This document shows positions 2,093 through 41,687 of a DNA stretch of 64,000 bases, one piece after another (the stretch's first letter is position 1; each line of letters starts with the position of its first letter). Source of the DNA: Azomonas agilis (GTDB taxonomy: Bacteria; Pseudomonadota; Gammaproteobacteria; Pseudomonadales; Pseudomonadaceae). Under the pieces are notes generated by a model. It was not told where the DNA came from and ran no database searches. It worked only from the letters and a program-made list of their open reading frames with translations. The stretch spans positions 186,001 through 250,000 of the forward strand of contig NZ_VLKG01000002.1 in assembly GCF_007830255.1 (NCBI RefSeq), read 5' to 3'. A program made the translations under genes and the position numbers.

Positions 2093-3111
2093 TGGCGCTG
2101 AATTTAAACGGCTGCGTGGAAATGATCCACGGCGGCGGCGGACGGGCCAGCGCCGAGCTGATCCGCGAACTCTTTGCCCAAGCCTTCGACAACGAATGGC
2201 TGAACCAAGGCAACGACCAAGCCCAATTCACCCTGCCCGCCGGACAGGTAGTGATGGCCACCGACAGCCATGTGATTGCGCCGCTGTTCTTCCCTGGTGG
2301 CGACATTGGCAGCCTCTCGGTACATGGCACTTTGAATGATGTGGCCATGTCCGGCGCGAAGCCCTGCTATCTGGCTGCCAGCTTCATTCTGGAAGAAGGC
2401 TTTCCGCTGGCTGACCTGAAACGCATTGTCGATTCGATGGCCAAGGCTTCCCGCGAAGCCGGAGTGCCCATCGTCACTGGCGACACCAAGGTAGTGGAGC
2501 GGGGCAAGGGCGATGGTGTCTTTATCACCACCACCGGCGTGGGCGTGGTTCCCGAAGGGCTGTACCTCTCCGGCGATCAAGCGCGCCCCGGCGACAAAAT
2601 CCTGATTTCCGGCAGCATTGGCGACCACGGTGTGACCATTTTGTCCCTGCGCGAAGGCTTGGGCTTTGAGGCCGACATCGGCTCCGACAGCCAAAACCTC
2701 GCGCTCTTGGTGGCGGCGATGTTGGAAGCGGTGCCGAGCATTCGCTGCCTGCGCGACCCAACCCGTGGTGGCTTGGGCAATACCCTCAACGAATTGGCCC
2801 AACAGTCCGGCGTGGGCATGCAGTTGGAGGAGGCTGCCATTCCCGTGCGCGAGCCTGTGCGTGCCGCCTGCGAGTTCTTGGGCCTTGATCCGCTTTATGT
2901 CGCCAACGAAGGCAAGTTGATCGCCATTTGCCCCGCCGAACACGCCGAGCAGCTCCTAGCTGTGATGCGCGCCCATCCCCTTGGCCAACAGGCCGCCATC
3001 ATCGGCACCGTGCAGGAGGATGCCCAGCAGTTTGTGCAGATGCGTACCCAGTTTGGCGGCCAGCGCATGGTGGATTGGTTAAATGGGGAGCAGTTGCCGA
3101 GGATTTGTTGA
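2092..3111 (+). CDS. hypE: Hydrogenase maturation protein HypE (thiocarboxamide dehydratase)
   Basis: HypE dehydrates a thiocarboxamide on its C-terminal cysteine to a thiocyanate and donates CN- to the iron on HypCD. I chose the ATG at 2092 (339 residues, [20 protein letters not shown]) because it overlaps the hypD stop and gives the usual family N-terminus. An upstream in-frame start at 1927 would add 55 residues read through hypD in another frame. PurM-like ATP-binding motifs are present (MATDSHVI, VTGDTKVVERGKGDG, DPTRGGLG). The protein ends PRIC, the invariant C-terminal cysteine required for activity. A second diverged copy of this 3' end lies at 3824-3937. Confidence 0.97.
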   Translation: MALNLNGCVEMIHGGGGRASAELIRELFAQAFDNEWLNQGNDQAQFTLPAGQVVMATDSHVIAPLFFPGGDIGSLSVHGTLNDVAMSGAKPCYLAASFILEEGFPLADLKRIVDSMAKASREAGVPIVTGDTKVVERGKGDGVFITTTGVGVVPEGLYLSGDQARPGDKILISGSIGDHGVTILSLREGLGFEADIGSDSQNLALLVAAMLEAVPSIRCLRDPTRGGLGNTLNELAQQSGVGMQLEEAAIPVREPVRAACEFLGLDPLYVANEGKLIAICPAEHAEQLLAVMRAHPLGQQAAIIGTVQEDAQQFVQMRTQFGGQRMVDWLNGEQLPRIC

Positions 3112-41107: not shown

Positions 41108-41281
41108 ATGAGTACTTTGGCTGACTTAGCCTTAGAGCGTGAAAAGCGCATCCATAACATCCACGAGCGCCGCCTTGAGGATGTACGCAAAGCCTTTGAG
41201 CGCGCCTTGCCGCTAAATACCCCTGCCCCAAAAAATAAGAAAAAGGCGGGCAAGTCGAGCAAAAAACCAGGGAAAAAGTAA
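41108..41281 (+). CDS. Small lysine-rich protein (57 residues)
   Basis: This short gene starts at ATG 41108 behind an excellent ribosome binding site (GAGGAGG at 41094-41100). The product has a helical, charged first half (MSTLADLALEREKRIHNIHE, then RRLEDVRKAFERALP) and a strongly basic tail (PKNKKKAGKS...PGKK). The tail suggests nucleic-acid or ribosome binding. I recognise no family. It begins 53 bases after the marR stop, so it may be co-transcribed with it. Confidence 0.6.
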   Translation: MSTLADLALEREKRIHNIHERRLEDVRKAFERALPLNTPAPKNKKKAGKSSKKPGKK

Positions 41282-41318
41282 AAGACTACCCTGCGTCGCC
41301 CTAAGTTCGGATTTTAAA

Positions 41319-41332
41319 TTGACTTATATCAA
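41319..41332. promoter_or_regulatory. Upstream FNR/Anr-type box TTGACTTATATCAA
   Basis: The site matches TTGAY-N4-RTCAA, the FNR/Anr consensus, at nine of ten key positions. Its centre is exactly 50 bp upstream of a second such box. Between the two boxes there is also an imperfect 10-bp inverted repeat (41335-41344 with 41354-41363, one mismatch). Confidence 0.7.
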
Positions 41333-41368
41333 GTATCACTCCGGTCCTTTCATCCGGGGTGATGGCAC

Positions 41369-41410
41369 TTGACGCGGGTCAATGCTTCCTATTCGTTCTC
41401 TGCTATTGTT
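41369..41410 (+). promoter_or_regulatory. FNR/Anr-dependent class II promoter
   Basis: TTGACGCGGGTCAA at 41369-41382 is a perfect TTGAC-N4-GTCAA palindrome. A -10-like TATTGT lies at 41405-41410. The predicted start at 41417 puts the box centre at -41.5, the exact position of an FNR box in class II promoters. There is no good -35, as expected for an activator-dependent promoter. Confidence 0.72.
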
Positions 41411-41487
41411 TGATACAGATACGGGGGGCATCCCGAAAAGTGCAAGCTAAAAAGAGCAGCCGACGAGATCGGGGCCAAGGGGGGGAG

Positions 41488-41556
41488 ATGGTTGACAATA
41501 TGATATTCGCAGGGGTGATTACAGCCTGCCTAATGGTCGCCTTTTTGGGCAACTGA
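41488..41556 (+). CDS. 22-residue membrane peptide (CcoM-like?)
   Basis: The ORF starts at ATG 41488 directly behind GGGGGGAG (41480-41487). It encodes MVDNMIFAGVITACLM followed by a short hydrophobic end (VAFLGN): one transmembrane helix. It sits ~70 nt into a predicted FNR/Anr-activated transcript. From memory, its start resembles that of CcoM, the small single-helix subunit of Pseudomonas stutzeri cbb3 oxidase, which would fit low-oxygen control; but CcoM is longer and this ORF stops just after the helix. An upstream in-frame ATG (41359) would begin before the promoter and is not credible. It may alternatively be a leader peptide on a regulatory RNA. Confidence 0.5.
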   Translation: MVDNMIFAGVITACLMVAFLGN

Positions 41557-41661
41557 TCTAGGGCTGTATTTAAGACACTCCATCCTGCATCTGTAGTTCA
41601 TCTCAGAAAGCACGCTTAAGACGTGCGCAGGAGCAAACAATAAAGGCACGCAAGGCAATTG

Positions 41662-41687
41662 GGCGGCTCCGGTCGCCTTCTTTTTTT
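41662..41687 (+). terminator. Rho-independent terminator of the FNR-controlled transcript
   Basis: Stem GGCGGC / GTCGCC (one G-U pair) with a TCCG tetraloop at 41662-41677 is followed by TTC and seven T residues. It ends a predicted RNA of about 270 nt starting near 41417. Confidence 0.85.

Follow-up and report, generated by a model that had tools for sequence, protein, structure and literature searches.

PhrS is a regulatory RNA of Pseudomonas-type bacteria that is induced by low oxygen and also encodes a tiny membrane protein. The family is characterized by Anr-dependent expression, association with Hfq and pairing with target RNAs, its known targets being pqsR and CRISPR leaders. In P. aeruginosa, PhrS has been described as a dual-function sRNA dependent on Anr (PMC8395346); its published creg interval spans nt 169-182 (PMC9308961). 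The function of the PhrS peptide was called elusive or still to be elucidated in reviews of 2021 and 2022 (PMC8395346, PMC9308961). CcoM of cbb3 oxidase is known from P. stutzeri (PMC10433244). No publication joining PhrS with CcoM, cbb3 or cytochrome c oxidase was found in our literature search, which covered part of the literature.

Here, we analyzed a unit at positions 41319-41687 of a 64,000-nucleotide stretch of Azomonas agilis DNA (the window). A preliminary description had read it as a small oxygen-controlled transcript encoding a 22-residue membrane peptide. We conclude that it very probably represents phrS-ccoM in a species of Pseudomonadaceae.

Results

A divergent PhrS unit

Judged by its homology, the unit is a divergent PhrS ortholog, a variant of the known dual-function sRNA, with the following features (window coordinates).

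41319-41332, plus strand: distal Anr/FNR box TTGACTTATATCAA, seen in the sequence; centre at -91.5 from the predicted start; a second box recurs in related PhrS promoters
41369-41382, plus strand: proximal Anr/FNR box TTGACGCGGGTCAA, seen in the sequence; centre at -41.5 from the predicted start, a class II position
41404-41409, plus strand: -10 element TATTGT, seen in the sequence; predicted start at about 41417
41417-41687, plus strand: predicted PhrS transcript of about 270 nt, from the Rfam match, with the 5' end taken from promoter geometry
41477-41487, plus strand: purine-rich ribosome binding site AAGGGGGGGAG, seen in the sequence; its counterpart in the PhrS consensus is AAGGAG
41488-41556, plus strand: short ccoM ORF of 22 aa, MVDNMIFAGVITACLMVAFLGN; ATG at 41488, stop TGA at 41554-41556; homologs are 5djq_N, NF041600 and the ORFs of congener G002
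41645-41658, plus strand: creg-like block GGCACGCAAGGCAA; aligned to nt 169-182 of the PhrS model; in relatives, no other DNA of the unit is as well conserved (blastn)
41661-41687, plus strand: intrinsic terminator GGGCGGCTCCGGTCGCCT plus T run, directly after creg; stem at 41661-41678

In a covariance search with an E-value threshold, the Rfam model of PhrS (RF01673) matched 41445-41687 over model positions 1-212 with 36.9 bits (E 1.5e-7). This score lies 0.1 bit under the gathering score of 37, and an Rfam search at the gathering threshold returned no family. The unit shares with P. aeruginosa PhrS (213 nt) an Anr-type promoter, an internal small ORF, a creg block and a terminator, as well as the order and spacing of these parts. 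It differs from it by a longer 5' leader and 3' spacer, by an ORF of 22 rather than 37 codons and by a model score just under gathering.

A DNA search (blastn) with the unit detected the creg and terminator block in 24 of 57 genomes, its own included, and matched almost only the 3' end; relatives were therefore reached via the covariance model and a protein profile. The blastn result is the unbiased evidence for creg conservation, as the per-base values are partly circular, with units having been chosen by the creg motif. With z -1.6, the transcript does not stand out in predicted fold energy. Homology rules out a chance origin of the unit, because the paired-box spacing recurs and creg and terminator are conserved in relatives. 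The reading of the unit as a small oxygen-controlled transcript is thus supported through PhrS homology. Both the ribosome binding site and the intrinsic terminator named in the preliminary description were confirmed in the sequence. Its expectation that the unit would escape standard annotation was also borne out, the unit scoring just under the Rfam cut-off and its peptide under the NCBIfam cut-off.

Upstream of PhrS, at 41109-41282 on the plus strand, lies a short lysine-rich ORF of 57 aa (MSTLADLALEREKRIHNIHERRLEDVRKAFERALPL...). Congeners have a similar ORF at this position (L006, L007, L088), and no Pfam family was found for it. The unit is also adjacent to a MaoC-like gene, whose loci in named genomes are without PhrS. 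These genomes place the family in Pseudomonadaceae: PhrS has identical coordinates in two family members and in two named genomes, Pseudomonas sp. MYb185 and a Pseudomonadaceae MAG (pairs G007/G327 and G210/G320).

An Anr-type promoter

As had been described, the two boxes lie exactly 50 bp apart, and the window has no further perfect TTGAYN4RTCAA site. Shuffled versions of the window contained a mean of 0.23 such sites, and two sites were reached in 2 of 100 shuffles. The -10 element reported at 41405-41410 is present, one base off that position at 41404-41409. Taking the centre of the proximal box (41375.5) and the -10 position together, we predict a start near 41417, which places the boxes at -41.5 and -91.5 and separates them by about five helical turns. 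The earlier centring of the second box at -41.5 holds with this start. For FNR-type activators, -41.5 is a usual class II position and -91.5 a usual class I position. The 5' boundary of Rfam matches was considered as a marker of the start site and rejected, as its distance downstream of the box centre ranges from 24 to 72 nt.

Conservation of the boxes in relatives had been named as a check on the unit. Nearly all related PhrS units have retained the proximal box. Two boxes 49-52 bp apart are found in 43 of 77 units; in the other 34, the pattern used detected one box at most. In relatives, too, an AT-rich hexamer follows the proximal box, at a distance (21-22 nt) close to that in the window. 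The window genome encodes one FNR-type regulator, which scores 323.6 bits and carries an N-terminal cysteine cluster (HCKDCSLAPLC) and the recognition helix E-T-V-S-R.

The 22-codon ORF and its relation to CcoM

The 22-residue ORF of the preliminary description was found with its start and stop as listed above, and its suggested resemblance to CcoM, in a shorter form, was upheld by alignment. Residues 2-21 of the peptide align without gaps with residues 3-22 of chain N of PDB entry 5djq (E 0.00097), the only convincing PDB sequence match. This chain, listed as uncharacterized, we take to be the CcoM subunit in the cbb3 structure from P. stutzeri. It is near-identical to members of NF041600 (CcoM), including one full-length ORF from the PhrS locus of a relative, which supports the CcoM identity. 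NF041600 is also the sole NCBIfam match of the peptide, with 23.5 bits (E 5.6e-5) under a curated cut-off of 40; full-length ORFs from the PhrS loci of relatives score 71-78 bits.

Compared with the 36-aa CcoM of P. stutzeri cbb3, to which 20 of its 22 residues align, the window peptide is without the last 14 or so residues, comprising the aromatic helix end and the charged tail, and falls under the family cut-off. It follows the N-terminal CcoM pattern M-(F)-x-D-x-V-V-x-A-G-x-x-T-x-x-L-M-V-x-F except for M-I in place of V-V. The C-terminal F-I-W-K-D-x-x-K-K segment is absent from all frames after the window stop. A frameshifted full CcoM was rejected, there being no tail in any frame, and a second, full-length ccoM was sought elsewhere in the window genome and not found. 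From these alignments, the window ORF is a C-terminally truncated CcoM homolog, shortened from about 36 to 22 residues.

PhrS and CcoM across Pseudomonadaceae

A search for the same unit in relatives, as the preliminary description had proposed, found PhrS in 291 and CcoM ORFs in 273 of 298 family genomes (by covariance model and protein profile, respectively), with the ORF of the unit 22 codons long, full-length or absent. Wherever they were compared, CcoM profile matches fell inside the PhrS matches of the same genomes. The PhrS ORF of about 37 aa and CcoM are therefore the same gene. PhrS matches in genus g12 are without creg and probably false. Duplicated PhrS units were seen in two further genomes (G279, C1:2480096-2485112; G309, C1:215192-215600).

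The locus was found in four states: 1) in most genomes, one or more Anr boxes, a CcoM ORF of 35-38 aa, creg and terminator; 2) in Halopseudomonas, full CcoM with the variant block TCGCAAGGCC or with no recognisable block; 3) in G005, G008, G024, G068, G074, G277 and G288, Anr box, creg and terminator with no ORF, often with only 75-110 bp from box to creg, an ORF-less state that extends over a longer span in G003, G015 and G111; and 4) in the window and congener G002, the 22-codon ORF. Congener G001 has a full 37-aa ORF, and G003, likewise a congener, has none. Comparison of these 298 relatives shows that PhrS can lose its RNA part and its protein part separately.

In the Halopseudomonas group, full CcoM together with creg changed to TCGCAAGGCC was observed at L067, L070, L072, L073, L075, L203-L206, L208, L209 and L213-L215. 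This change suggests a different target set or lost pairing. A minimal, ORF-less PhrS that packs Anr box, creg and terminator into about 130 bp was seen at L077, L079, L082, L083, L085 and L086; these loci, a natural RNA-only version, fall partly in a genus without cbb3 oxidase.

Association of CcoM with cbb3 oxidase

Presence of a CcoM ORF (E up to 0.01) was compared with that of full ccoN (E up to 1e-100) among the 298 genomes. Both were present in 266 and neither in 17, with CcoM only in 7 and ccoN only in 8 (odds ratio 81, Fisher p 1.5e-16); five CcoM-table and four ccoN-table entries were read off as gaps in lists. Among genomes at least 90% complete, the respective numbers were 257, 15, 4 and 7. 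Genomes in this comparison are not independent, and the 11 double-negative g6 genomes probably represent one loss. Counted by genus (19 genera), p was 0.004 with g6 scored as without CcoM and 0.05 otherwise, two g6 genomes showing only a divergent weak ORF.

Lineages without cbb3 have kept Anr box, creg and terminator and lost the ORF. Four cbb3-positive genomes (G005, G074, G277 and G288) carry PhrS without any CcoM ORF, and the peptide is therefore not strictly needed. The window genome has one ccoN and one ccoO. Upstream of its ccoN and ahead of the cbb3 operon lies CTGACTCCAGTCAA (L091, minus strand, about 2992-3005), which resembles an Anr box with a single mismatch; no perfect Anr box was found in the L091 cbb3 locus.

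The short form in two species

Congener G002 carries three tandem CcoM-like ORFs within 1.2 kb (L006 400-2600, minus strand). Two of the copies have boxes, creg and terminator, and the first is without creg or clear Anr boxes. Neither ccoN nor ccoO was found in the G002 genome, which is 99% complete. As this genome has three short ORFs yet no ccoN or ccoO, the short form there cannot serve a cbb3 oxidase.

One may ask whether the short ORF is a decaying remnant, in which a stop arose in ccoM within the genus, the peptide is non-functional and only the creg-bearing RNA is kept. Other lineages are without the ORF yet keep box, creg and terminator, congener G003 has no ORF and G002 has no cbb3, all as expected from decay. 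However, the four short ORFs of the two species each end after exactly 22 codons, with the start and the ribosome binding site before it kept, and the window peptide still aligns with CcoM over 20 positions without a gap. In addition, pN/pS was 0.31-0.51 between the window and the G002 copies and 0.33-0.45 among the G002 copies, at pS values near saturation (0.61-0.84). Because only 21 codons were compared and pS is near saturation, these ratios favour constraint on the short form weakly. The 22-aa form is thus probably not a product of random decay, and we regard the remnant as an unlikely explanation, although one that retains some weight.

A new membrane partner for the short peptide, which would then no longer be a cbb3 subunit, at least in G002, is suggested by the tandem ORFs in a genome without the oxidase and by an A-C shared by the short forms where most CcoM have V-G. 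Still, the window's own genome has cbb3, the common A-C residues may be mere ancestry, and G002 could have lost cbb3 only recently, so that we hold such a partner to be quite improbable. A purely non-coding FnrS-like sRNA unrelated to PhrS, to which the anaerobic-type promoter and the short RNA with a long 3' part might point, is extremely improbable in view of the whole-length PhrS match, the absence of an FnrS match in an Rfam search of the unit and the coding homology to CcoM. Of the earlier idea of an FnrS-like sRNA, the sRNA stands, as an ortholog of PhrS, which had not been recognised, and FnrS does not. What the FNR-dependent sRNA of E. coli shares with the unit is no more than the concept of a small RNA activated by FNR; it is an analogy with no match in sequence or structure, and FnrS is not described as coding.

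Discussion

With the parts of the unit, their homology and conservation, and genes for an Anr-type regulator and a cbb3 oxidase observed in the window genome, a PhrS-type unit carrying a shortened CcoM may work as follows. When oxygen falls, Anr would bind the boxes at -41.5 (class II) and -91.5 and switch on expression of the RNA of about 270 nt. This RNA would contain two modules. The first is the 22-codon ORF, whose translation would yield a one-helix peptide, presumably inserted into the membrane, in which the N-terminal two thirds of CcoM are retained and F-I-W-K-D-x-x-K-K is lost; its likeliest role would be binding beside CcoN in the single cbb3 oxidase of the genome. The second is the creg block adjoining the terminator, which pairs with target RNAs in P. 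aeruginosa PhrS and might do so here. We give the 22-mer about an even chance of being a working cbb3 subunit.

A broader picture can be proposed tentatively, and as a whole it is rather doubtful: in all Pseudomonadaceae, the PhrS peptide would be CcoM; the two halves of the RNA, coding and regulatory, would evolve separately; and in this genus CcoM would have become a distinct 22-residue membrane peptide, tandemly multiplied in one oxidase-less species, which would point to a new partner.

The PhrS peptide, whose function is unassigned in reviews, is identified here with CcoM of cbb3 oxidase, and its co-loss with the oxidase supports this identification. Participation of the P. aeruginosa PhrS peptide in cbb3 thereby becomes directly testable. 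Moreover, the natural cases of the RNA without the peptide, and of the RNA with a shortened peptide, would allow the two functions of PhrS to be separated.
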